Positions 2,339 through 14,426 of a stretch of DNA of 64,000 nucleotides are shown here, piece after piece. Location of the stretch: positions 124,001 through 188,000 of the forward strand of contig NZ_JAUFQB010000011.1 of the NCBI RefSeq assembly GCF_030409525.1. Direction: 5' to 3'. Source of the stretch: Kaistella yonginensis (GTDB lineage Bacteria > Bacteroidota > Bacteroidia > Flavobacteriales > Weeksellaceae). The first letter of the stretch is position 1. Each line of letters begins with the position of its first letter. Below the pieces are notes generated by a model, which worked only from the letters and a program-made list of their open reading frames with translations, was not told the origin of the DNA and did not search any database. The position numbers were made by a program, and so were the translations under genes.

Positions 2339-3817
2339 ATGTCAAATCTTTGGAAAACAAAATCTCTTAGCCAACTTTTGCAAAATGCAGATGATTCGGA
2401 AAAGGGACTTAAACGAACATTGAGTGCAACTTCGCTTGTGGCTTTAGGAATTGGAGCCATCATTGGAGCTGGTTTATTTTCATTAACGGGTATTGCTTCT
2501 GCAGAAAATGCTGGGCCTGCCGTAGTTTATTCTTTTATTCTTGCTGCCTTGGGTTGTGCTTTTGCGGGACTATGTTACGCGGAATTCGCATCGATGATTC
2601 CGGTGGCCGGGAGCGCCTATACTTACTCGTATGCAACAATGGGAGAATTTATGGCATGGATTATTGGTTGGGATTTGGTGCTTGAATATGCTCTGGGTGC
2701 TGCTACTGTTGCCTCTTCTTGGTCTCAATATGTTGCAAAGTTTATGTTGAGTTTTGGTATTACCTTACCAAATTCCTTATTGCATGGTCCTTGGGACGAA
2801 ACGTCAGGGTATGTAAATCTTCCCGCAATTTTAATTATCTGCTTACTTTCTTTATTATTAATAAAAGGGACTAAAGAATCAGCGCTGATCAATAATATAT
2901 TGGTTATTCTGAAGGTAACTGTTGTTTTAGTATTTATCGCGCTTGGATGGGGTTTCATTAATCCTGAAAATCACCAACCATTTATCCCAGTGAACGAAGG
3001 TGAGGTGTTGATGGGGCAAGGTAAAATGGGCTTTTTTGAATTCTTCCAGAGTGATTATTTTGGTCATTACGGATGGAGTGGAATTCTGAGAGGTGCCGGC
3101 GTTGTTTTCTTCGCTTTCATCGGATTTGATGCGGTAAGTACCGCTGCCCAAGAAGCGAAAAATCCACAAAAAGGAATGCCTATAGGAATCATTGGTTCAT
3201 TGATTATCTGTACCATATTGTATGTACTTTTTTCTTATGTATTAACAGGGCTGGAAAATTATGTAAACTTCAAAGGTGATGCTAGTCCAGTAACAACTGC
3301 ATTTGCGAAGACCGGTTATACTTTTCTAAACTCTGCCCTTACCATCGCAATTATTGCCGGATATACGTCGGTGATGTTGGTGATGTTGATGGGGCAAAGT
3401 CGTGTATTTTATAGCATGAGTGTTGATGGGTTGCTTCCTAAATTCTTCAGTGATGTACATCCCAAAACCAGCACGCCTTGGAAAACAAATATTATCTTCA
3501 TGATCTTTGTGAGTTTATTTGCAGGATTTGTTCCCGTGTCCGACTTGGGTCACATGGTCAGTATCGGAACTCTATTTGCCTTCTCGCTGGTATGTATCGG
3601 TGTGGTAGTGATGAGAAAGACGAATCCAGATGCGGTTCGTGGTTTCCGAGTTCCTTTAGTTCCCTTGGTGCCTATTTTAGGAGTGATTATATGTGTCGCT
3701 TTGATGGCAGGTTTACCGATTGAAAGTTGGGAGAGACTTGGGATCTGGTTAGCTTTAGGTTTGGTGATCTACTTTGTTTATGGAAAAAAACATTCTAAAA
3801 TAAATAATCAGCAATAA
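2339..3817 (+). CDS. APC-superfamily amino acid permease (CAT/YfnA-like)
   Basis: This 492-residue inner-membrane carrier has about twelve hydrophobic segments. It shows the APC helix-1 motif GIGAIIGAGLFSLTG (residues about 37-52) and the helix-6 segment FFAFIGFDAVSTAAQEAKNPQKGMP, both typical of the cationic amino acid transporter subgroup that includes Bacillus YfnA. Members catalyse proton-coupled uptake or exchange of amino acids. It stands alone, divergent from the AGCS symporter and followed by a terminator-like hairpin, so it is probably monocistronic. Substrate specificity (cationic, branched or aromatic amino acids) cannot be read from the sequence. Confidence 0.93.
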   Translation: MSNLWKTKSLSQLLQNADDSEKGLKRTLSATSLVALGIGAIIGAGLFSLTGIASAENAGPAVVYSFILAALGCAFAGLCYAEFASMIPVAGSAYTYSYATMGEFMAWIIGWDLVLEYALGAATVASSWSQYVAKFMLSFGITLPNSLLHGPWDETSGYVNLPAILIICLLSLLLIKGTKESALINNILVILKVTVVLVFIALGWGFINPENHQPFIPVNEGEVLMGQGKMGFFEFFQSDYFGHYGWSGILRGAGVVFFAFIGFDAVSTAAQEAKNPQKGMPIGIIGSLIICTILYVLFSYVLTGLENYVNFKGDASPVTTAFAKTGYTFLNSALTIAIIAGYTSVMLVMLMGQSRVFYSMSVDGLLPKFFSDVHPKTSTPWKTNIIFMIFVSLFAGFVPVSDLGHMVSIGTLFAFSLVCIGVVVMRKTNPDAVRGFRVPLVPLVPILGVIICVALMAGLPIESWERLGIWLALGLVIYFVYGKKHSKINNQQ

Positions 3818-3820
3818 AAT

Positions 3821-3847
3821 AAAATCCCGTATTTGAGGCGGTATTTT
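3821..3847 (+). terminator. Candidate intrinsic terminator of the APC permease gene
   Basis: AAAATCCCG and GCGGTATTTT pair with one mismatch around an 8-nt loop, and a short T-run follows, starting 4 nt after the permease stop codon. Confidence 0.55.
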
Positions 3848-3883
3848 TGTTGCGATCAATTTCTTATTATTAAAACAAATCAA

Positions 3884-3918
3884 TAAAAAGGGTATTGCAT
3901 TCTGTTCAATACCCTTTC
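3884..3918 (-). terminator. Intrinsic terminator of the polyketide cluster
   Basis: A perfect 11-bp stem (3887-3897 with 3907-3917, core AAAGGGTATTG) has a 9-nt loop and, on the minus strand, is followed by a T-run. It lies about 50 nt beyond the stop codon of the acyl carrier protein, the last gene of the minus-strand cluster. It may also help to insulate the convergent permease transcript. Confidence 0.7.
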
Positions 3919-3969
3919 TGTAGGAAAATATAGTGCTTAATTCAAAGGTGATTGCTGCTGCTTAAAATG

Positions 3970-4224
3970 CTATTTATTACTCAATTTGACGTTAATCACC
4001 GCCAATGCAGATTTTACATCACGCATTTTTTCCATGGATTCGGCATCGATTTCAATATCAAAAACTTCTTCCACATCAAGTATAACATCAACTAAATTAG
4101 CGGAGTTAATATTTAAATCATTGATGAAATCTGTGTTTTCATTGATGTTTTCTAACGCTTCCTCATTTCTGACATAAGGTTTTACGATTTCTTTGAGTTT
4201 TTTCAGAGCCTCTTCCTTGTTCAT
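3970..4224 (-). CDS. Acyl carrier protein dedicated to the lipid/polyketide cluster
   Basis: The 84-residue acidic, helical protein has the fold and spacing of an acyl carrier protein. The presumed phosphopantetheine-attachment serine is Ser41 in DLNINSANLVDVILDVEE, where the usual DSL triad is replaced by NSA. It would carry growing acyl chains as thioesters for the ketosynthase, dehydratase and reductase encoded just upstream in the same operon (18 nt from the ketosynthase stop). The departure from DSL suggests a specialised carrier rather than the housekeeping FAS II AcpP. It is the last gene before the terminator. Family assignment is firm; whether a dedicated phosphopantetheinyl transferase exists cannot be seen here. 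Confidence 0.9.
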   Translation of the reverse strand: MNKEEALKKLKEIVKPYVRNEEALENINENTDFINDLNINSANLVDVILDVEEVFDIEIDAESMEKMRDVKSALAVINVKLSNK

Positions 4225-4242
4225 ATTTTTGTTTTAAATTTA

Positions 4243-5514
4243 TTAAGAATATTTTTTAATGATAATACAACCATTCACATCGCCAAAACCAAAACTTACT
4301 TTTGCCGCAATATTTATTTCTTTATTTAACAATATTTGTGGAATACACTTAGCATCGATGATTGCGGTAATTTCTGGATTCAAATCTTCGCAATTCTTAT
4401 TGGGAGCTACAAAATTTTCAGTCAGTTGCAAGATGGTTGCAACCGTTTCGATACTTCCCGCTGCGGAAAGACAATGTCCAGTCAAAGCTTTAAGAGAATT
4501 GATGTATGGGAAATTTTTCGCCGAACGGTTTAAAGCTTCGGCTAAATTTTGAATTTCAGTAGCATCTTTTGAAGTTGCAGTTAAATGTCCGCTGATATAA
4601 TCAATATCTTTTGCTTCAATTCCAGCATCCAGAATTGCATCTTTCACACATTTTTGTACTGCAGTGGAATTGGGCGCAGTCATACTGCCACCACCACGTT
4701 GCCCGCCAGAATTAAGATTTCCACCCAGTATTTCGCAATATATTTTTGCATTTCTTGCTAAGGCAGATTCCAGATCTTCGATGACCAAAGCGCCGGCGCC
4801 ACTTCCAGGCACAAACCCTGCAGCAGAAGCACTCATCGGTCGGGAGGCTTTTTCTGGATCATTATTGAATTTGTAATTACATACTTTTATCGCATCAAAA
4901 CCCGCCCAAATATAAGGGCCAGAATCACTCGTGCTTCCGGCTAAAATACGTTTTGCTTTTCCAGATTTTATGCGGTCAAACGCCATTAAAATACTTTCTG
5001 TTCCGGTGGTGCAAGCGGACGAATTCGTGGTGACTTGGTTTCCCAAGCCTAATTTCCCGCCTAAGTAAGCAGAAATTCCACTATTCATGGTTTGTGAAAC
5101 GGCGGTGCTGCCCAATCGCCGAGTTTGCAGGGCATCGATTTTATAAATACTTTCACGGAATTTTTCAATCCCTGAAGTTCCTGTTCCGAATATCGTTCCG
5201 CTATCCCAATCAGGATTTTTACCTTCTGAAATTTGTAAACCAGCATCTTTCCAAGCTTCTAAACCCGCGATAACACCGTACATAATTCCGGTCGAATTGA
5301 AATTCCTTAATTCTAAATCGGTAAAATACTCGTCTACATTATTTTTGTCAATGGGCGGAGTCCCGGAAACCTGACAGGAAAATTTCAGGTCAGCTAATTG
5401 TTGATCAAACTGAATTCCAGAACGGCCTTCTTTTAAAGCTGATTTAAAATCTTCTAAACCAACTCCATTGGGAGCAACGACTCCTAATCCGGTGATGACA
5501 ACTCTTCTTTCCAT
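4243..5514 (-). CDS. Beta-ketoacyl-ACP synthase (KAS II/FabF-like)
   Basis: The 423-residue condensing enzyme extends acyl-ACP by decarboxylative Claisen condensation. The thiolase-fold triad is visible as Cys168 in NSSACTTGTES, His310 in ISGHLTATSKDATE and His347 in LKALTGHCLSAAGS, with Lys342 nearby. Start choice: a longer open frame begins at 5574, but ATG at 5514 begins the canonical MERRVVITGLGVVAPNG and lies 1 nt after the dehydratase stop, so the upstream 20 codons are discarded. The block after the first catalytic His (HLTATSKD) departs from the HGTGTxxxD common in FabF, which may mean unusual chain-length or substrate preference. It lies in a tight operon with a dedicated ACP and would feed the type III PKS or elongate a separate chain. 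Confidence 0.92.
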   Translation of the reverse strand: MERRVVITGLGVVAPNGVGLEDFKSALKEGRSGIQFDQQLADLKFSCQVSGTPPIDKNNVDEYFTDLELRNFNSTGIMYGVIAGLEAWKDAGLQISEGKNPDWDSGTIFGTGTSGIEKFRESIYKIDALQTRRLGSTAVSQTMNSGISAYLGGKLGLGNQVTTNSSACTTGTESILMAFDRIKSGKAKRILAGSTSDSGPYIWAGFDAIKVCNYKFNNDPEKASRPMSASAAGFVPGSGAGALVIEDLESALARNAKIYCEILGGNLNSGGQRGGGSMTAPNSTAVQKCVKDAILDAGIEAKDIDYISGHLTATSKDATEIQNLAEALNRSAKNFPYINSLKALTGHCLSAAGSIETVATILQLTENFVAPNKNCEDLNPEITAIIDAKCIPQILLNKEINIAAKVSFGFGDVNGCIIIKKYS

Positions 5515-5515
5515 T

Positions 5516-5950
5516 TTAATTAACTTTAATAATTCCAGCAATTGTTCCTTCACAAACGATTTCTGATTTTTCATTCATCATTTTTACTTTGCATTTCAGT
5601 TTATTAAATCGAAAATATATTTTTTCTGAAATCACCGTCACTTTTTCACCCGGAAAAACGGGTTTTATAAATTCAATGTCGGTTGAAGTTAAACCAATTT
5701 GGCTTTCTTCAGTCAAATCACTTCCAACCAGAAAAATTCCCAAACAAACCAAGCCGATTTGCGCCATTGTTTCGGTTAAAATAACTTCAGGAGTAATTGG
5801 ATTGTTGACAAAATGACCTTTGTAGAAATCTAAATCTTCTTTAAAAGTGAAAGTTCCGGTCACACCATTTTCGTCAACGCTCACCAAATCATCCACGAAT
5901 AAAAATGGAGTATTGTAAGGCAGATTTTTAATTATTTCTTCTATAATCAT
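5516..5950 (-). CDS. FabZ/FabA-like 3-hydroxyacyl-ACP dehydratase (hot-dog fold)
   Basis: The 144-residue protein matches the FabZ hot-dog family in length and in the active-site layout: His46 in YKGHFVNNPITP and Glu60 in EVILTETMAQIG, corresponding to the His/Glu dyad that removes water from 3-hydroxyacyl-ACP. The usual GHFP proline is replaced by Val. It sits between the reductase and the ketosynthase, 32 nt after the former and 1 nt before the latter, so it is likely translationally coupled. Dehydratase is the most probable activity; a thioesterase of the same fold is the alternative. Confidence 0.87.
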   Translation of the reverse strand: MIIEEIIKNLPYNTPFLFVDDLVSVDENGVTGTFTFKEDLDFYKGHFVNNPITPEVILTETMAQIGLVCLGIFLVGSDLTEESQIGLTSTDIEFIKPVFPGEKVTVISEKIYFRFNKLKCKVKMMNEKSEIVCEGTIAGIIKVN

Positions 5951-5982
5951 TGATTAGTTAAATGTAATTTAAAATTTAAAAT

Positions 5983-6780
5983 CTATCTCAAATGTTCACC
6001 ACCATCTACTGGTATTACACCACCATTAATCCAAGCGGCTTCATCTTGACAAAGTAAACCAACCACATTAGCTACCTCTTCCGGCGTGGTTAATCTTTTA
6101 AATGGATTTCTTTTTTTTGAATATTCTTTTATTTCTTCACTTCCGGGAATCATTTGCAGAGATCGTGTATCTGTCACTCCAGCCTGAATACAATTGGAAC
6201 GTAAACCAAAAGGAGCAAATTCCAAAGCGATACTTCTTGAGATGGCTTCCAATGAGGCCTTTGCAGCCGAAACTGCGGCGTAATTATCAATGGGTTTCTT
6301 ACTTCCTTCACTGGTAAAAGCAAGAATTCTGGCATCTTCAGCAAATAAATTTTCATTAAAAATTAATTTTGTCCAATCATATAAACTCGTCGACATGGCT
6401 TGCAAAGTAATGGAGAAGTCATCGGTGGAAAGACTTTCGTTTTCTGAGCCAATCATTGGTTTTAAATTTCCTTTGGCAATACTATGCAATAGACAACGGA
6501 TTTTTCCATCTGTTCCCAACGCTAATTTTATTTCTGCTAAAACATCCTTTTGATGTTGCAGATTTAAAACGTCTTTATTTAAACTTAAAAACTGAATATT
6601 TTGATTTTTAATTAAAGTAAATCCTTCATTGATACTTTCCATTTCTGCACGGGAATTACGGTGAATAATACAAATATTCATTCCTTCTAAAGCTAATTTT
6701 TTTGCAGAAGCTAATCCCAATCCTGAACTTCCGCCCAAGATTAAAGTCCAGTAATTTGTATTTTCAAATCTTCTTACCAT
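5983..6780 (-). CDS. SDR-family enoyl-ACP reductase-like protein
   Basis: The 265-residue protein has the Rossmann dinucleotide motif GGSSGLGLASAKKLA (residues 16-30), and the C-terminal WINGGVIPVDGG typical of short-chain dehydrogenases. The catalytic pair is Tyr167 and Lys174, spaced Y-x6-K (NYAAVSAAKAS). Classical ketoreductases such as FabG use Y-x3-K, whereas Y-x6-K is diagnostic of enoyl-ACP reductases FabI and FabL. The HSIA motif at 99-102 also resembles FabI. It is therefore more likely to reduce trans-2-enoyl-ACP than 3-ketoacyl-ACP. The start codon overlaps the PKS stop (ATGGTAA, 7 nt shared), so the two are translationally coupled. No FabG-type ketoreductase is present in the cluster and it would have to be borrowed from FAS II. 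Confidence 0.88.
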   Translation of the reverse strand: MVRRFENTNYWTLILGGSSGLGLASAKKLALEGMNICIIHRNSRAEMESINEGFTLIKNQNIQFLSLNKDVLNLQHQKDVLAEIKLALGTDGKIRCLLHSIAKGNLKPMIGSENESLSTDDFSITLQAMSTSLYDWTKLIFNENLFAEDARILAFTSEGSKKPIDNYAAVSAAKASLEAISRSIALEFAPFGLRSNCIQAGVTDTRSLQMIPGSEEIKEYSKKRNPFKRLTTPEEVANVVGLLCQDEAAWINGGVIPVDGGEHLR

Positions 6781-7826
6781 TGTAGTAAAACTCTTTGTGC
6801 AGAAAAGCCGGGCCCGAAACTGAGCATCAAACCTCTCTCATCTTTCTGCGGTTTTTGATTCATGATTTCTTCTAAAACATACAAAACGGTCGCACTCGAC
6901 ATATTTCCGTAGAGTCGCAAAACCTCTTTTGTCGTATCAATGTTTTTACCCAATTCTGAAAATAAACCTTCCACCATTTGGACGATTTTTTTTCCGCCCG
7001 GATGAAATATGAGGTGATCAATATCTTTAATTTCTAAATTTTGTTTCGCTAAAAACGGATGGATGATATTTGGGAAATGTGCTCCAATCGTGTCTGGGAC
7101 TTCAATATCCAGGATCATTTGTAAGCCAGAATTGGTGAGTTTGAAACCCATCATATGTTCATTATTATAAAAATGATACATTTCTTCCGCAAGAATCTCC
7201 GGACCTTCCGCATCTTCATCAGAAGAAAGTAGAACACAAGCCGCACCGTCACCAAAAATTGCGGCACTTACAATATTTGCTATAGAAAAATCTTCCAGTT
7301 GAAAAGTGGCGGTTGGACTTTCCACTGCAATGACAGCGGCGCGTTTACCCGGATTTGCTTGAAGAAAATTTTTCGCGTAAATAATTCCGGAAACGCCCGC
7401 CGCACAACCCATTTCGGTTACCGGCAAACGAACAATATCTTGGCGTAAATTTAATCGATTAATCAGATAGGCATCTAGAGACGGAATCATAATTCCAGTG
7501 CAACTTACGGTGATAATATAATCCAGAGATTGCGGTTTCCAATTGGCTTTTTTTAAAGCTTTGTCCAAAACTTGCTCGCCCAAAATAACGACTTCGCGGG
7601 CATAAATGTTATTTTTTTCTTCGAAAGAAGTGGCGGTAAAAACTTCTGCTGGATCCATAATTGAATATCTTTCATCCACTGCAGCGCCTTCAAATATTTT
7701 TTTGACTTTACGAATAAACCGACTTTCCTGACCTTCTAACCAGAGATCGAGGAAAGGCAAGACTTCGGAAGTTTTTCGGGAATATTTTGGGAGTTGCTTT
7801 GCAACGGTAACTATTTTTACACTCAT
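6774..7826 (-). CDS. Type III polyketide synthase (chalcone/stilbene synthase superfamily)
   Basis: This 350-residue homodimeric-type condensing enzyme carries the full Cys-His-Asn triad: Cys141 in TEMGCAAGVSG, His275 in LIFHPGGKK and Asn308 in RLYGNMSSATV. Such enzymes extend an acyl starter with malonyl-CoA and cyclise it to pyrones, resorcinols or phloroglucinols. Start choice: the open frame begins at 7856, but ATG at 7826 (MSVKIVTVAKQLP) fits the family N-terminus and the upstream 10 codons read into a dispersed repeat. It is followed by a coupled enoyl reductase-like gene and dedicated FAS-type enzymes, which suggests a long or unusual fatty starter. Product unknown; alkylresorcinol or alkylpyrone is an inference. 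Confidence 0.93.
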   Translation of the reverse strand: MSVKIVTVAKQLPKYSRKTSEVLPFLDLWLEGQESRFIRKVKKIFEGAAVDERYSIMDPAEVFTATSFEEKNNIYAREVVILGEQVLDKALKKANWKPQSLDYIITVSCTGIMIPSLDAYLINRLNLRQDIVRLPVTEMGCAAGVSGIIYAKNFLQANPGKRAAVIAVESPTATFQLEDFSIANIVSAAIFGDGAACVLLSSDEDAEGPEILAEEMYHFYNNEHMMGFKLTNSGLQMILDIEVPDTIGAHFPNIIHPFLAKQNLEIKDIDHLIFHPGGKKIVQMVEGLFSELGKNIDTTKEVLRLYGNMSSATVLYVLEEIMNQKPQKDERGLMLSFGPGFSAQRVLLQW

Positions 7827-7842
7827 TAATTGAATATTTTTT

Positions 7843-7990
7843 AACCACAAAGTCACAAAAGTTTTATTGAAAATATTTACTGTAAAAGTTCACATAAGTT
7901 AAAAATCTATAGATTTTTAGTTTCTTTTGTGGTTCATATTAATAATCTTCATTTTTTTTTTACAGTAAATCTTTGTGCCTTTTGTGGTTT
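7843..7990. repeat. 148-bp nested palindromic intergenic element
   Basis: This gap between the methyltransferase and PKS genes is almost wholly a nested inverted repeat. The outer arms are 7843-7861 (AACCACAAAGTCACAAAAG) and 7971-7990 (its imperfect complement, ending CTTTTGTGGTTT). A perfect 13-bp pair, ATTTACTGTAAAA and TTTTACAGTAAAT, lies at 7875-7887 and 7958-7970. The centre is an 18-bp palindrome at 7901-7918. The outer-arm sequence recurs at about 9893-9916 and 50951-51278. No coding potential is evident. It looks like a MITE/REP-type element and could form a large RNA hairpin within the operon transcript. Confidence 0.75.
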
Positions 7991-8013
7991 AATATTATTT
8001 TTTTATTTGCTGT

Positions 8014-8724
8014 TTATTTTTCAATAATCCATTGGTATCGGAAAGCCCATTTCCATTTGATGCTGTATTTCTTTAAACCTAAATCTTTTGAAAATTTTTC
8101 TAAATCTTTTCTTTTGAAACCTCTTAAAATAGAAATTAAGCCATCATTCGCGGTCATTTTTTCTAATCTGAAAATAAAGATAAGCATTTGGAACAAACGA
8201 TAAGCCAGTTTACTTCGCTGCAAATCATTAACAACGATTCCTTTTTTGATGATGTTATAGATCACCTTCATTATTTTGATGATTTCATCATTTTTAAAGT
8301 GATGTAAAGTGAGCGTTATCAGGGCAATATCAATATTATATTTTGAGAAATCGTAGAGAAAAATATCTTCAGCCAAATAGGTGATATTGTCAAAATCAGC
8401 GGAGCATTTTTCTGCATGTCGAATGGTGGCTTCGTTGGCATCGATTCCAATTAAAACAAATTTTAGATTATTTTCAGCTCCAAATTTTGAGAGCATTCGC
8501 AGCATGTCACCGCCTCCACAACCGAAATCCATAATCGTGATGCTCTGATCTTTTGGATAGTTTTTAATTAATTCTTTAACTCCATTTAATGTTACTGCAT
8601 TTCCGCCGAGCAACTGATTGATTCGAGCAATGTCATCCAAAGCGGTCACCAAATCATTGCTATCCATCGAAAAATCATCCATTGATTCTTCGAGATCTGT
8701 CCTGTACTTGGTATCTAAAGCCAT
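8014..8724 (-). CDS. SAM-dependent class I methyltransferase
   Basis: The 236-residue protein has the class I methyltransferase core: motif I IMDFGCGGGDMLRML (residues about 64-78), an acidic ribose-binding position in GIDANE, and motif post-I around LAEDIFLYDF. It resembles small-molecule methyltransferases found next to bacterial type III PKS genes and would O- or C-methylate a phenolic or pyrone product. Its ATG overlaps the stop of the FAD oxidoreductase (TAATG), so the pair is translationally coupled. A 188-nt palindromic gap separates it from the PKS gene. Substrate inferred from context only. Confidence 0.88.
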   Translation of the reverse strand: MALDTKYRTDLEESMDDFSMDSNDLVTALDDIARINQLLGGNAVTLNGVKELIKNYPKDQSITIMDFGCGGGDMLRMLSKFGAENNLKFVLIGIDANEATIRHAEKCSADFDNITYLAEDIFLYDFSKYNIDIALITLTLHHFKNDEIIKIMKVIYNIIKKGIVVNDLQRSKLAYRLFQMLIFIFRLEKMTANDGLISILRGFKRKDLEKFSKDLGLKKYSIKWKWAFRYQWIIEK

Positions 8725-9902
8725 TAATTTTGAGTCATTGTGATTTCTTTTCCGTGCGTTTTTTTAATGATAATCGGAAGTAGGAAAGGAAGATGGGTTG
8801 TTAAATTTGTCAGAACTTCTGAAAGTTTTGAATGTTCTAAAATCATGCCTAAAATTCGGCCATACCATAATCTTTGTTTGAAATTTTTATTCCAGTTTAA
8901 AGAATAATTCTTTTCCATTTCCTGACGGGAAGTTTGGTTTTTTAAAAAATCAATCGTTTGTTCCGAAGCCAGTTTTGCACTGTGAATTGCCATTGCCATT
9001 CCATTTCCACATAAAGGATGTATTAATCCTGCAGTGTCACCCATCATCAAAATATGATCTTCTACATTCTTTTTTTTCTCAAAACAAATCTGACTGATGG
9101 TCAAAGGTTTTTCAAAAACAGAAGTTGCATTTTCTAAAATATTTTTCAAATGTGGGTTTTGAGCGACAACTTTTTCCTGGAACTCTTCAATATTTTTATA
9201 TTTTTTAAAGGATTTAAAACTGGTTAAATAACAGACATTAAGAACATTACTTTCAACTTTCGATACACCGCAATAACCACCTTTAAAATTATGTAAACCC
9301 ACAACATCATCCGGAAAATTTCCTTTGTAATGAGATTTAACGGCTAACCAAGGAGATGTTTGTTCGATGAAACCACGCTTCATTTTCACATCTAAATTGG
9401 AGCGTTTTCCAAACCCACCTAAAACCACTTTCGAGGTCAAAGTTTTTCCGGAAGCCAGCTGAATTTTAAAGAGATCATCTTTAAAATGAACGTTATTGAC
9501 CTGATCTTCGATAATCACGCAATTTTGTGAAAGCGCTTTTAAAAAAAGTGCATGGTCCAAAGTGTACCGGCTGATCCCAAAACCACCGAGTGGAAGTTTG
9601 GTTTCAATGGTTCGTCCGGACTCTGATGAAAATTGTAAAGACTTAATATGAGTGGGTTTTAACTCTTCAATATCGACGTTAAGCCATTTGAAATAGGGTA
9701 GGACTTCATTGGAAATATATTCGCCGCAGACTTTATGTTTTGGGTAAGAATTCTTTTCAATAATAATTACTTTACAACCCTTTTTCGTGAGATGGATCGC
9801 ACTTGTTAAACCTGCCAAACCGCCGCCAATGATAAGAACTTCGGAATCATATTTTGAATCGTCCAATTTTTTATTTAAATGTAGTAATTTTTTAAACCAC
9901 AT
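8724..9902 (-). CDS. FAD-dependent oxidoreductase (geranylgeranyl reductase/hydroxylase type)
   Basis: The 392-residue flavoprotein has an N-terminal FAD-binding GxGxxG (LIIGGGLAGLTSAIHL, residues about 24-39), the HKVCGEYIS segment typical of geranylgeranyl-reductase-like enzymes, and the second FAD motif MMGDTAGLIHPLCGNGMAMA (about 287-306). Relatives hydroxylate aromatic rings or reduce prenyl or enoyl double bonds. As first gene of the cluster it may oxidise the polyketide ring (hydroxylation to a quinol/quinone) or reduce a double bond. The only available Met start (MWFKKLLHLNKK) lies inside a copy of the dispersed CACAAAAG repeat, so the N-terminal few residues are uncertain. Confidence 0.88.
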   Translation of the reverse strand: MWFKKLLHLNKKLDDSKYDSEVLIIGGGLAGLTSAIHLTKKGCKVIIIEKNSYPKHKVCGEYISNEVLPYFKWLNVDIEELKPTHIKSLQFSSESGRTIETKLPLGGFGISRYTLDHALFLKALSQNCVIIEDQVNNVHFKDDLFKIQLASGKTLTSKVVLGGFGKRSNLDVKMKRGFIEQTSPWLAVKSHYKGNFPDDVVGLHNFKGGYCGVSKVESNVLNVCYLTSFKSFKKYKNIEEFQEKVVAQNPHLKNILENATSVFEKPLTISQICFEKKKNVEDHILMMGDTAGLIHPLCGNGMAMAIHSAKLASEQTIDFLKNQTSRQEMEKNYSLNWNKNFKQRLWYGRILGMILEHSKLSEVLTNLTTHLPFLLPIIIKKTHGKEITMTQN

Positions 9903-9916
9903 AAGTCACAAAAGTT
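9893..9916. repeat. Short copy of the CCACA-TAAGTCACAAAAG dispersed repeat; rest of gap has no gene
   Basis: The sequence AAACCACATAAGTCACAAAAGTTTT surrounds the FAD gene start codon and matches the outer arm of the 148-bp element at 7843. The remainder of the gap up to 10125 is AT-rich; I see no supported gene there, and the short plus-strand open frame in it has no protein-like features. Confidence 0.6.
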
Positions 9917-10125
9917 TTATAATAATTCTTCTTTATTTTTAAACACATAAGTTTTAAGTGGAAGAGAGATGCGTGGAAAAGAGCACGTTTATTGTCAATT
10001 TCTCTGGGTAATCTTAATTATCTGAATTCCTTAACCAAAAACTTAATGGTAAATTTTTGCATCATTCTTTTGCAATCTTTTGAATTTCTAAATTTCCATC
10101 CACATTTCTTTTTTTTCTTTTGCGG

Positions 10126-10212: not shown

Positions 10213-12120
10213 TTAAATTTTCTCATTCTTAATCTCCTCCACAATCTCCGGATTCAAAAGGGTAGAAGTGTCGCCGAAATTTGCAAAATCACCTTCCGCA
10301 ATTTTTCTTAAAATACGTCGCATGATTTTCCCCGAACGGGTTTTTGGCAATGCGGACACAAACTGAATTTTATCCAGCTTCGCAATCGGTCCAATCGTAT
10401 CGGAAATCACATTATTGATTTCTTTTCTTAAATTGTCTCTATCACGATTTTCGCCACTGTCTTTCAACATGACAAAACCATACAGCGCACTTCCTTTCAC
10501 ATCGTGTGGATAACCAACAATCGCAGATTCTGCCACGGCTGGATGTAAATTCACGCTGTCTTCAATAGGTGCAGTTCCCAGATTATGTCCAGAAACAATG
10601 ATCACGTCATCAACCCGACCTGTAATTCTATAGTAGCCAACTTCATCTCTCAAAGCGCCATCTCCGGTGAAATATTTTCCAGGGAAAGCCGTGAAATAAG
10701 TTTCTTTATATCTTTGATGATCACCCCAAATTGTTCTTGCAATTCCAGGCCATGGAAAACGAATACATAGATTTCCATCGACTTGATTTCCGGTGATTTC
10801 ATTTCTTTTATCATCCATTAACACGGGCTGAATTCCCGGCAAAGGCAAAGTTGCGTAGGTCGGTTTCGTTGGGGTGATAAATGGCAATGGTGAAATCATA
10901 ATTCCTCCGGTTTCCGTTTGCCACCAAGTATCCACAATGGGGCATTTTTTCTTACCAACATGATCATTATACCAATGCCACGCTTCATCGTTGATCGGTT
11001 CACCTACGGACCCTATGACTCGTAAACTCGACAAATCATGTTTCTCTACCCATTCGTAAGATTCTTTTGCCAAGGCACGAATTGCAGTTGGAGCCGTGTA
11101 AAATTGAGTGACTTTATGTTTTTCAATCACTTCCCAAAAACGATCTGGTTCAGGATACGTTGGAACTCCTTCAAAAATGACGGTCGTTGCGCCATTCGCA
11201 AGTGGACCGTACAAAATATAAGAATGTCCTGTAATCCAGCCGATGTCTGCCGTACACCAGTAAATATCGTTCTCTTTATAATTAAAAACATTCTTAAAAG
11301 TATAAGCCGTAAACACCATGAAACCCGCAGTAGTATGCAACATTCCTTTCGGTTTTCCGGTAGAACCTGAGGTGTACAAAATAAACAGCGGATCCTCTGC
11401 ATCCATGATCACCGAAATAAAATCAGCGGGTGCTTTGTCATACAATGGAGCCAACCAAAGATCACGTCCTTCCTTCATTTTCACTTCGCCACCCGTTCTT
11501 TTCACCACCAAAACTTTTTCCACGGTCGGACATTTTTCAACGGCTTCATCAATGATTCCTTTTAGATCGATCGATTTTGTACCTCTGTAACTTCCATCAG
11601 AACAGATGATCATTTTTGCGCCACAATCGTTTACTCTTGACTCCACAGCGTTTGCAGAAAATCCTGCAAAGATCACCGAGTGAATTGCACCCAATCTTGC
11701 ACAAGCCAACATGGTAACTGCTAATTCCGGAATCATCGGCAGATAAATACAAACACGATCGCCTTTCTCTACGCCTAAATCACGCAGCACATTTGCCATT
11801 TTACAAACTTTTGCGTGCAAATCTCTGTAGGAAATATGTTGTGCCTCTTCTTTCGGATCATTCGGTTCAAAGATAATCGCCGTTTTGTCGCCACGTTCAT
11901 TCAAATGCCGATCGATACAGTTTTTGGTGATGTTAAGTTTGGCATTTTTAAACCATTCAATTTTTGCATTTTCCATATCGTAGGAAACCACTTTCGACCA
12001 TCGTTGATACCAGACGAAATTCTCATCGGCTACTTTATCCCAGAATTTTTTCGGGTTTTTAATCGATTTTTTGTACTGTTTAAAATAGTCCGGTAAATCG
12101 TCTATCACGTAATTTTTCAT
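10213..12120 (-). CDS. acs: Acetyl-CoA synthetase (AMP-forming)
   Basis: The 635-residue cytoplasmic ligase activates acetate with ATP and CoA to acetyl-CoA. It shows the N-terminal ACS domain, the phosphate-binding loop YTSGSTGKPKGML (about residues 250-265), the acetate-pocket stretch DTWWQTETGGIMI, TGDGALRDEVGYYRITGRVDDVI near 490, and the acetylatable lysine motif PKTRSGKIMRR near the C-terminus. The length is normal for Acs. It is the last gene of a minus-strand region with PrpE, a CrbS-like kinase, a transporter and a porin, and is separated from PrpE by about 400 nt of repeats. It is probably under the kinase's control, by analogy with the CrbSR acetate-switch systems. Confidence 0.95.
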   Translation of the reverse strand: MKNYVIDDLPDYFKQYKKSIKNPKKFWDKVADENFVWYQRWSKVVSYDMENAKIEWFKNAKLNITKNCIDRHLNERGDKTAIIFEPNDPKEEAQHISYRDLHAKVCKMANVLRDLGVEKGDRVCIYLPMIPELAVTMLACARLGAIHSVIFAGFSANAVESRVNDCGAKMIICSDGSYRGTKSIDLKGIIDEAVEKCPTVEKVLVVKRTGGEVKMKEGRDLWLAPLYDKAPADFISVIMDAEDPLFILYTSGSTGKPKGMLHTTAGFMVFTAYTFKNVFNYKENDIYWCTADIGWITGHSYILYGPLANGATTVIFEGVPTYPEPDRFWEVIEKHKVTQFYTAPTAIRALAKESYEWVEKHDLSSLRVIGSVGEPINDEAWHWYNDHVGKKKCPIVDTWWQTETGGIMISPLPFITPTKPTYATLPLPGIQPVLMDDKRNEITGNQVDGNLCIRFPWPGIARTIWGDHQRYKETYFTAFPGKYFTGDGALRDEVGYYRITGRVDDVIIVSGHNLGTAPIEDSVNLHPAVAESAIVGYPHDVKGSALYGFVMLKDSGENRDRDNLRKEINNVISDTIGPIAKLDKIQFVSALPKTRSGKIMRRILRKIAEGDFANFGDTSTLLNPEIVEEIKNEKI

Positions 12121-12524: not shown

Positions 12525-14426
12525 TTACAAATACTTCTTTTTATATTCATCCATTTTCAACTGCAATTCCTCCACAACACTTTCATCATCAATCGTCGAC
12601 GGCATCTGGTATTCCTTTCCATCCAACATCGTCCGAATTAGTTTTCGTAATATTTTCCCTGAACGCGTTTTTGGTAAACGATGCACCACCAAAGCATTTT
12701 TCATACACGCCACAGCGCCAATTTTTTCCCTTACCAACAAAACGAGGTCTTTTTCCAAAGTTTTTTCATCCACAGCCGAACCTGACTTCAGCACAGCGAT
12801 CGCAAACGGAATTTGACCTTTCAAATCATCATCAATTCCAACCACGCAACATTCTGCAACTTCTTTATGAGCCGCCACAACCTCTTCCATTTCCGCCGTA
12901 GAAAGTCGATGTCCTGCAACATTGATCACATCATCCACTCTGCCGGTCACGAAAACATAACCATCTTCATCCTTAATCGCACCATCACCGGAGAAATAAT
13001 ATCCAGGAAATTTCGCTAGATATCCAAATTTAAAACGCTCCGGATCACCCCAAATTCCCATCATCGCTCCTGGAGCTAAAGGAAGTTTGATGACCAAATA
13101 CCCTTCATGATGTGCTTCCAACTCATAACCTTCTTCACTGAAAATTTTAATATCATAACCCGGAATTGGTTTGCCGGCCGAAGCTCTTTTGATTTTTACG
13201 TCTTCAACTCCCGGCATTAAGCCCAACATTGGCCAACCTGATTCGGTTTGCCACCAGTGGTCGATGGCTGGAACTCCGACAAATTCTTCATACCAATCCA
13301 GCGTAGCAACGTCACATCTTTCACCAGCCAAAAATTGAGTCCTTAAAGAAGATATATCGTATTTTTTTACCAATTTCCCTTCTGGATCTTCTTTTTTAAT
13401 GGCACGAATTGCAGTTGGAGCAGTAAACATGGCGACCACCTTATGTTCTTCAATCACGCGCCAGAATGTTCCTGCATCTGGAGTTCCGATCGGTTTTCCT
13501 TCAAAAATAATCGTTGTATTTCTGTTAATTAATGGACCATAAACCGAATAACTGTGTCCAACTGCCCAACCAATATCGGATGCTGCCCAGAAGGTTTCTC
13601 CTTCGTTAATGCCGTAAATATTCTGCATGGAGAATCTCATCGCCACAGCATGACCACCATGATCTCGCACAACTCCTTTCGGTTTACCGGTCGTTCCAGA
13701 AGTGTACAAAATATACAAAGGATGGGTAGATTCGACAGAAACGCAATCGGTCGGCACTGACTCGGTCATTAACTTTTCAAAATCAACCAAGGAAGAATCG
13801 TTTTTAAAATCAACTCGATTTCCTAATAATTTTCTATCGAAAGCCACGATGTGTTCAGGTTGATGTGTAGACATCGAAACTGCTTCTTTCACAAAAGGCA
13901 AATACGGAATTCTTCTCGAAACTTCCATTCCGGAACTTGCGGTAATAATCGTTTTTGGGTTACAGTCATCAATTCTGATGGCCAATTCCTGTGGAGCAAA
14001 TCCACCAAAAACCACGGAATGCGTAACGCCTAATCTTGCACAAGCCAACATGGCGAAAACCGATTCGGGAATCATCGGCATATAAATAATAGCGGTATCT
14101 CCTTTTTCTAAACCTAACTTTTTTAGTCCACCAGCAAGTTTTGAAACGTGTTCTAAAACTTGACTGTAAGAATATTTAATGATTCTATTCGTGACTGGTG
14201 AATCGTAAATGATTGCTATTTGATCGCCAAAGCCGTCTTTGACATGTTTGTCAACCGCTAAGAAACAGGTGTTCAATTGGCCATCTGCAAACCAAGTTGG
14301 ATAATTTTCGCCGTCATCGGTCAATATTTTTACAGGCTTTTTAAACCAATCAATTTTATCTGCTTGTTCCGCCCAAAATTTCTCTTTGTGAGCAATACTT
14401 TCTTTAAAAATTTGATCTGCATTCAT
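12525..14426 (-). CDS. prpE: Propionyl-CoA synthetase-like acyl-CoA ligase
   Basis: The 633-residue AMP-forming ligase belongs to the Acs superfamily but carries PrpE/ACSS3-type signatures: YTSGTTGKPKGVVRDHGGHA near residue 240 and IDHWWQTESGWPMLG near 390, where Acs has TETGG. The acetylation-lysine motif PKTRSGKILRK is present near residue 590. It would activate propionate or other short-chain acids to acyl-CoA in the cytoplasm. It lies 86 nt downstream of the response regulator and is probably in the same transcript as the sensor kinase. Together with Acs the cell would have two activating enzymes for imported carboxylates. Propionate preference is inferred from the family. Confidence 0.9.
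   Translation of the reverse strand: MNADQIFKESIAHKEKFWAEQADKIDWFKKPVKILTDDGENYPTWFADGQLNTCFLAVDKHVKDGFGDQIAIIYDSPVTNRIIKYSYSQVLEHVSKLAGGLKKLGLEKGDTAIIYMPMIPESVFAMLACARLGVTHSVVFGGFAPQELAIRIDDCNPKTIITASSGMEVSRRIPYLPFVKEAVSMSTHQPEHIVAFDRKLLGNRVDFKNDSSLVDFEKLMTESVPTDCVSVESTHPLYILYTSGTTGKPKGVVRDHGGHAVAMRFSMQNIYGINEGETFWAASDIGWAVGHSYSVYGPLINRNTTIIFEGKPIGTPDAGTFWRVIEEHKVVAMFTAPTAIRAIKKEDPEGKLVKKYDISSLRTQFLAGERCDVATLDWYEEFVGVPAIDHWWQTESGWPMLGLMPGVEDVKIKRASAGKPIPGYDIKIFSEEGYELEAHHEGYLVIKLPLAPGAMMGIWGDPERFKFGYLAKFPGYYFSGDGAIKDEDGYVFVTGRVDDVINVAGHRLSTAEMEEVVAAHKEVAECCVVGIDDDLKGQIPFAIAVLKSGSAVDEKTLEKDLVLLVREKIGAVACMKNALVVHRLPKTRSGKILRKLIRTMLDGKEYQMPSTIDDESVVEELQLKMDEYKKKYL

Follow-up and report, generated by a model that had tools for sequence, protein, structure and literature searches.

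A seven-gene operon of Kaistella yonginensis appears to couple a type III polyketide synthase (PKS) to an acyl carrier protein (ACP) line of its own. The operon lies in a 64,000-nt stretch of contig NZ_JAUFQB010000011.1 (positions 124,001 to 188,000 of assembly GCF_030409525.1, a genome of 3.24 Mb in 63 contigs); this whole stretch is called the window below, and positions are counted from its first letter. Seven open reading frames without internal stops run on the minus strand from 9902 to 3970, in the order flavin adenine dinucleotide (FAD) oxidoreductase, methyltransferase (MT), type III PKS, short-chain dehydrogenase/reductase (SDR), FabZ-like dehydratase (DH), FabF-like ketosynthase (KS) and ACP, and these are the seven genes that a preliminary description of this DNA had listed. 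With a probability of about 0.6, the operon is a PKS-MT-FAD set with its own discrete acyl-ACP supply, making a ring-headed lipid or a small polyketide. We think that the chain of the product is built or trimmed on the private ACP and then handed to a distinct type III PKS. The idea of a transfer from an ACP to a type III PKS is already known; what is new here is a discrete cassette, linked to a phosphopantetheinyl transferase (PPTase) gene and without a ketoreductase (KR), joined to a separate clade of type III PKSs, which we call clade A.

Association of the type III PKS with the acyl-ACP cassette

In a sample of 295 genomes of the class, the cassette KS (E-value of 1e-75 or better) was present in all genomes with a clade-A PKS (16/16, vs. 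5/279 of those without), and the same was found in a sample of 345 genomes of the phylum (31/31 vs. 4/314), where each of the 31 genomes has PKS and KS on the same contig, no more than about 3 kb apart. The two samples overlap, genome G114 being among the exceptions of each, and such counts are inflated by relatedness.

The synteny check that had been proposed for the gene set was run on the best 80 of 463 related stretches confirmed in a scan of species genomes, the rest of which may include other type III PKS clades. The core order FAD-MT-PKS-DH-KS was found on one strand in 80 of the 80 loci, which is more than chance (contig ends truncate the KS of locus L059 and the FAD gene of L073), and the ACP in 78, the two loci without it (L032 and L059) ending at contig edges. 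A further set of 93 parsed loci, comprising 79 of these 80 (all except L059) and 14 more, was selected by a strong PKS match together with a KS match, a condition that removed only L059; one locus, L116, repeats L031. All 93 have FAD-MT-PKS-KS in order, with the MT and FAD genes adjacent to the PKS. Another ten loci, drawn from nine genus codes and including L172, which repeats L015, all have the core and the ACP (SDR in 7/10, PPTase in 6/10). By a quick method, a tree of PKS, KS and DH with 41 rows requires 4 changes for the SDR and 3 for the PPTase. The core order was found in seven family codes (f1, f2, f3, f6, f29, f41 and f68), and most other neighbouring genes vary from locus to locus. 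Many of the flavobacteria with the linked genes are environmental, and a strain of Flavobacterium johnsoniae also carries the operon (L062).

Directly downstream of the ACP, a PPTase-family open reading frame on the same strand is present in 74 of the 93 parsed loci; at the median it begins 3 nt ahead of the point where the last called gene ends. Eight PPTases were scanned, of which seven scored above the PF01648 cut-off and that of L200 just below it (24.9 vs. 25); the three scanned from PKS loci (L133, L080 and L113) were all above. The dedicated ACP, KS and DH line that the preliminary description had tied to the PKS is thus supported by the co-occurrence and by the linked PPTase, while the SDR, proposed there as the enoyl reductase of the set, is missing from most loci (see below).

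All seven proteins have a Pfam match above the gathering score, the ACP barely, and the assigned catalytic residues (Table 1) are intact in every aligned row checked: the three PKS residues in 94/94 rows, all four KS residues in 94/94, the DH pair in 92/92 and the SDR pair in 24/24. The residues of the PKS, KS, DH, ACP and SDR are assigned the roles usual for these families. Ser41 of the ACP is conserved in 79/79 rows with Asn before and Ala after it each time, so that the motif is NSA and, as had been observed, not DSL. The genome has two FabF-type KSs and two PF00550 ACPs among those found; the other KS is 32% identical to the cassette KS and lies together with the other ACP on contig C12. 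The cassette is therefore the one secondary line seen.

Position of the type III PKS among its relatives

In the PKS tree, the clade-A enzymes form one group (31 rows, support 100/99) separate from an 18-row clade of Bacteroidia enzymes of the PKS-MT-FAD trio type, and the nearest relatives of the present PKS belong to Kaistella. The root of this tree was not inferred, its long branches were flagged, and HidC, SrsA and PkqA are not among its rows. The surroundings of other Bacteroidia type III PKSs were fetched for 25 of 60 class genomes (76 minus 16): MT and FAD partners were found at 16 of these loci, one partner at 1 and none at 8, and no DH or ACP match was found at any of the 25. A KS does occur about 5 to 6 kb from the PKS in L148, L149 and L150, but it is FabF-type, and L120, L125 and L148-L150 show weak SDR matches (25 to 29%). 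For a third Bacteroidia clade (L142-L147 and L118; 31-36% identical to the query), the fetched surroundings contain no match to MT, FAD or cassette genes. Within the window's own genome, a weak match on contig C15 was considered as a second type III PKS and set aside, since in our reading it looks FabH-like.

Phe228 of the PKS occupies the position of ArsB Trp281 and chalcone synthase Gly256, as mapped through Pks11, ArsB itself not being in the alignment. Phe is found there in 104/104 clade-A rows (two known repeats included) and Trp in 25/25 other Bacteroidia type III PKSs; the reference enzymes differ, with Trp in Pks11, Leu in CylI and Tyr in 1u0m. According to the accessible text of PMC5916927, Trp281 of ArsB is essential for resorcinol formation, and MMAR_2470, with Tyr at this position, gives triketide pyrones; pyrone-forming ArsC has Gly (PMC9927152, text in part). 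Judged by sequence, Phe in place of Trp appears to weaken the analogy with alkylresorcinol synthases, although the residue alone does not settle whether a resorcinol or a pyrone is formed. As the PKS falls outside the trio-type clade and carries Phe instead of Trp, the ring may be either of the two.

This bears on a possible, though rather tentative, alternative for the product, namely that the same supply line feeds a PKS making an alkyl alpha-pyrone (tri- or tetraketide), which the MT O-methylates and whose chain or ring is acted on by the FAD enzyme. It concerns the product and is otherwise compatible with the private acyl-ACP supply. The residues of ArsB, ArsC and MMAR_2470 and the uniform Phe of clade A point in its direction, and so does the closest solved relative by sequence, Mycobacterium tuberculosis Pks11 (4jao, 180 bits), which is filed as an alpha-pyrone enzyme. 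However, CylI, which we take to be a resorcinol former, has Leu at this position, and the model of the FAD protein, lying near phenol hydroxylases, would be better suited to a phenol. Moreover, Pks11 has Trp at this site (listed in PMC9927152 and PMC5916927) and is placed among the resorcinol formers by PMC5916927, in the portions of these papers available.

Proposed pathway and points that weigh against it

In the pathway that we propose, the ACP would first receive its phosphopantetheine arm, from the linked PPTase in most relatives and probably from the one PPTase found in the present genome. The KS would then elongate an acyl starter on the cassette ACP with malonyl units; housekeeping FabG may lend the missing keto reduction, the DH would dehydrate, and the SDR, where present, would saturate the chain. 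The type III PKS would next accept the chain from the private ACP, add malonyl-CoA units and close the ring, after which the MT may methylate and the FAD enzyme oxidise it. The gene set and its order, the intact catalytic residues, the co-occurrence of PKS and cassette and the linkage of the PPTase in relatives are observed; we infer the product, the direct ACP-to-PKS transfer, the loan of FabG, the oxidation by the FAD enzyme and the order of tailoring.

The best NCBIfam match of the SDR is FabL (136 bits, below the equivalog cut-off of 328), and its Tyr-x6-Lys pattern is what we take to be a mark of FabI/FabL-type enoyl-ACP reductases. The AlphaFold2 model of the FAD protein (31 sequences, mean pLDDT 82.8) has its best structural match in PltA (Z 37.1, 360 residues, 2.9 Å), and PHBH-type hydroxylases match at Z of about 32 to 33, the top fold matches thus being halogenases and the model lying near phenol hydroxylases. 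Function as a flavin-dependent halogenase was nevertheless rejected, because the motif W-x-W-x-I-P, which presumably marks such enzymes, is absent (WVWQIP of Mpy16 aligns to GGYCGVSK-V-type residues). The PKS model has a mean pLDDT of 75.4. At two loci from two other genera, fabH-accB-accC precedes the operon, at distances of 1.8 and 3.4 kb (L163:2217-5168 and L167:891-3833), with fabH and accC above cut-off in both; we count these malonyl-CoA supply genes beside the operon, like the fold of the FAD protein, in favour of the pathway.

The following points weigh against it. Co-occurrence is no proof of a supply from the ACP to the PKS, and its counts are inflated by shared descent and by the overlap of the samples. 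The cassette also occurs without this PKS, so what it makes need not be destined for an enzyme that forms a ring. As the preliminary description had already stated, the window's cluster contains no KR gene, and none was found in the related clusters. The SDR is present at its place in only 14 of the best 80 loci (L003-L014, L016 and L019, from Kaistella, Halpernia, Frigoriflavimonas, Chryseobacterium sp. R2A-55 and two metagenome-assembled genomes) and missing from 66; it is an optional, non-essential member of the operon. The PPTase gene is absent from the window's locus and from all 14 of these SDR-bearing loci, which together with L032 (contig end) and L138-L141 make up the 19 parsed loci without it, and the one PF01648 match of the genome sits on another contig. 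Finally, the FAD protein may reduce rather than oxidise, its best NCBIfam match being the geranylgeranyl reductase family TIGR02032 (102.4 bits, below the cut-off of 158.8).

Cassettes without a clade-A PKS

Eight genomes hold the cassette KS without a clade-A PKS, giving nine loci (the absence was judged at an E-value of 1e-60 in G329, G353 and G393, and G114 has a different, lone type III PKS elsewhere in its genome). In L196 and L199, ACP-SDR-DH-KS-PPTase stands alone. In L197, a ketoacyl-ACP synthase III (KASIII)-like gene (1529-2524; 187.4 bits to beta-ketoacyl-ACP synthase 3, cut-off 249) lies between the cassette KS and DH, and its product could prime the cassette. In L198, DH-KS-ACP-PPTase adjoins a gene for a NeuD-like acetyltransferase (142.4 bits, cut-off 160.8) as well as putative glycan genes, and in L201, where the contig ends, KS-ACP-PPTase has comparable surroundings. 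In L200, SDR-DH-KS-ACP-PPTase lies about 1.7 kb from darB (634.8 bits, cut-off 550), with darH (453.7 bits, cut-off 300) also near, both on the opposite strand. In L202 and L204, DH-KS-ACP is accompanied by a protein of 378 to 416 residues and by a glycosyltransferase-like protein, and the same holds for L203, there with an SDR; the copy of the former protein that was scanned, that of L202, matched no NCBIfam family. About 4 kb from the cassette of L203 there is a BioF/Kbl/serine-palmitoyltransferase-type gene (3351-4577, below all cut-offs), a hint by similarity of a possible sphingolipid-type client.

The KSs of L196-L201, six of the nine loci, form one clade with the PKS-linked KSs (100/100), apart from FabF-type KSs, and an SDR resembling an enoyl reductase (ENR) is present in 5/9 loci. 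Outside the class, the ACP motif is DSF in L202 (8724-8984) and L204 (9811-10071) and NSM in L203 (8597-8863), and the NSA signature is therefore not general to the cassette. It is conceivable, though we hold it as a speculative extension, that KS-DH-(ENR)-ACP-(PPTase) is a portable acyl-ACP supply cassette of Bacteroidota, with a KR borrowed from housekeeping fatty acid synthase (FAS), and that it is plugged into different clients: the Phe-gated PKS clade, the dialkylresorcinol (DAR)/flexirubin pathway in L200, KASIII in L197, glycan-like genes in L198 and L201, and glycosyltransferase-like genes in L202-L204. In the same conjecture, a discrete type II ACP would hand a special chain directly to the type III PKS, and the ring would be neither that of hierridin nor a polyketide quinone.

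Comparison with known systems and remaining alternatives

The preliminary description had likened the operon to the Srs and Ars systems, SrsABC presumably being the name of the Streptomyces griseus operon. One part of this analogy stands: the arrangement of MT, FAD enzyme and type III PKS is known, and the FAD model fits a halogenase or aromatic hydroxylase fold. The other part, the likeness to alkylresorcinol synthases, is weakened by the separate position of the PKS and its Phe. The hierridin operon hidABC and the planctomycete MT-oxidoreductase-PKS operons resemble the present one in having these three genes side by side, and their core genes, in the accessible text of PMC8086630 and PMC10896814, are given without KS, DH, ACP or PPTase, whereas KS, DH and ACP are present here; an acyl-ACP starter has been proposed for HidC (PMC8086630, text in part). 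The same three-gene logic of PKS, methyltransferase and hydroxylase/oxidoreductase is followed by pkqABC, the operon for polyketide quinones, and by that of S. griseus, but the PKS there has Trp at ArsB-281, the pathway is shown starting from CoA thioesters, and the text available of PMC9927152 gives no FAS cassette.

The Azotobacter operon arsABCD likewise brings its own fatty acid synthase, a PPTase and type III PKSs together (PMC4824345, text in part). There, the synthase is one FAS protein, ArsA, of type I by the title of reference 15 in PMC13291983, and a title in the reference list of that paper states ACP transfer to the type III PKS for a type I FAS; the present operon has discrete type II proteins without a KR, no multidomain type I FAS, and MT and FAD genes in addition. 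Of the genes of such an operon, KS, DH and ACP are present here, and the PPTase is found in 74/93 relatives and not in the window.

The DAR/flexirubin pathway (darAB) is also a phenolic lipid pathway of Bacteroidota, and its ring is not known to be made by a type III PKS. Whether the gene set is such a locus had been raised beforehand, and it is not: the genome has no DarB match above the cut-off of 550, the best scoring 43.7 bits. Aequorivita sp. (Flavobacteriaceae) has a cluster labelled T3pks-arylpolyene by antiSMASH, whose type III PKS shares 69% identity with the Zobellia galactanivorans enzyme (PMC6139392), a level within the range between clade-A members, and this cluster may well be the present operon; the accessible text gives neither gene list nor product ("data not shown"). 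Bacteroidota papers, in the parts available, report antiSMASH labels and counts of type III PKS clusters. In agreement with the preliminary description, which knew of no characterised product, no description or product of this gene set was found in the open-licence literature, subscription papers lying outside the search.

A less probable explanation is that of an ordinary polyketide-quinone or hierridin-type operon, in which a common fatty acyl-CoA or acyl-ACP would be turned into an alkylresorcinol, methylated and hydroxylated, with the FAS-like genes as a minor side branch. Such trios do give alkylresorcinol products in cyanobacteria and planctomycetes (PMC10896814 and PMC8086630, text in part), and of the 25 other Bacteroidia PKSs, which have no DH or ACP matches, 16 have homologues of the MT and FAD genes beside them. 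However, clade A is separate from those enzymes and has Phe for Trp throughout, and no sampled genome with a clade-A PKS was without the cassette KS.

It is improbable that the KR-less ACP-KS-DH cassette condenses and cyclises to give a small ring starter, as Cfa1-3 do for coronafacic acid and the Amc enzymes for cispentacin. The lack of a KR in the clusters would suit this, as would weak NCBIfam matches of the KS to AmcF (103.5 bits, cut-off 325) and of the DH to AmcE (28.4 bits, cut-off 140), but the FabF and FabZ models score higher (276.9 and 61.5 bits, though also below their cut-offs), and an ENR-like SDR is linked in 14/80 loci and in 5/9 cassette-only loci. That the genes are neighbours through shared descent, with no joint pathway, is very unlikely: an inherited neighbourhood does exist, as an acetyl-CoA synthetase-like gene also adjoins in 51/93 loci, but the core order spans seven family codes while most other neighbours differ.

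Organization of the locus

Table 1. Features of the operon and its surroundings (window positions unless a locus is named).
Feature	Position	Strand	Evidence and remarks
FAD-dependent monooxygenase/oxidoreductase-like protein	8724..9902 (TTG 9866 likelier start)	-	Pfam FAD_binding_3 above cut-off
Class I S-adenosylmethionine methyltransferase	8014..8724	-	Pfam Methyltransf_25 44.7 bits, cut-off 27
Type III PKS	6774..7826	-	Pfam Chal_sti_synt_N and _C above cut-off; Cys141-His275-Asn308; Phe228
SDR, enoyl-ACP reductase-like	5983..6780	-	Pfam adh_short_C2 142.8 bits; Tyr167-x6-Lys174
FabZ-like hot-dog dehydratase	5516..5950	-	Pfam FabA above cut-off; His46, Glu60
FabF-like ketosynthase	4243..5514	-	Pfam; Cys168-His310-Lys342-His347; clade apart from FabF-type KSs
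Acyl carrier protein	3970..4224	-	PF00550 21.7 bits, cut-off 20.8; Ser41 in INSAN
187-nt gap between MT and PKS	7827..8013		Repeat copy 7833-7867; inverted arms 7833-7873 / 7959-7999
Intrinsic terminator hairpin	3885..3919	-	Followed by U's; -15.2 kcal/mol, z -4.1
Acetyl-CoA synthetase-like gene (our reading)	10213..12120	-	Upstream of the operon; operon membership unproven
Old-yellow-enzyme-like gene	L011:11888-12973, L012:11887-12969, L014:11937-13019, L019:11915-12997	opposite	Between SDR and DH

With corrected starts, the FAD and MT genes overlap by 1 nt and the PKS and SDR genes by 7 nt, and the gaps are 187 nt (MT-PKS), 32 nt (SDR-DH), 1 nt (DH-KS) and 18 nt (KS-ACP). The tight spacing described beforehand is thus reproduced, apart from a difference of one nucleotide in the repeat gap (given as 188), and the terminator reported at the end of the cluster was recovered as the hairpin of Table 1. 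This hairpin was not listed by a consensus terminator scan, which took loops of 3-8 nt only, because its loop is 9 nt.

The PKS starts at ATG 7826 and not at GTG 7856 of the longest open reading frame, since orthologue matches begin at 7826 and the GTG lies inside a repeat; the KS start by orthology, ATG 5514, also differs from the longest frame. The core of the dispersed repeat, 23 nt long, is found 4 times in the genome when ≤3 mismatches are allowed, and besides the copy ahead of the PKS (Table 1), another at 9886-9920 covers the annotated start of the FAD gene (ATG 9902). Most aligned orthologues of the FAD protein begin about 12 residues later, at the equivalent of TTG 9866, which by this comparison is the likelier start; the repeat may have displaced the original one.

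The acetyl-CoA synthetase-like gene upstream adjoins the operon in both Kaistella and Flavobacterium loci, and a similar gene follows at 12525-14426. In 4/93 loci, an old-yellow-enzyme-like gene lies between SDR and DH; it was rejected as a pathway member given its opposite strand and rarity (in L011 and L012 it is an N-ethylmaleimide reductase match below cut-off). Spread on plasmids was also rejected: 100 plasmid records matched the PKS, all below 60% identity with 33.4% at the top (15 of the 100 rows seen). Two of these records were opened, one of which is unannotated, while the other has an isoprenylcysteine-type methyltransferase gene beside the PKS and no cassette gene by annotation.

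Implications

The clade-A PKS occurs in 21/36 genomes sampled from the window's genus, 24/246 of the family (patchily, with 222/246 lacking it) and 31/345 of the phylum sample, yet no product was found for it in the literature searched. With the operon, the question whether a type III PKS is supplied by a discrete ACP of type II can be put cleanly, in two parts. Clade A differs from the other Bacteroidia type III PKSs examined in one residue, Phe vs. Trp, which can be swapped to probe the choice of ring. The loci with the cassette alone suggest that a small acyl-supply unit is reused in several lipid and glycan pathways.

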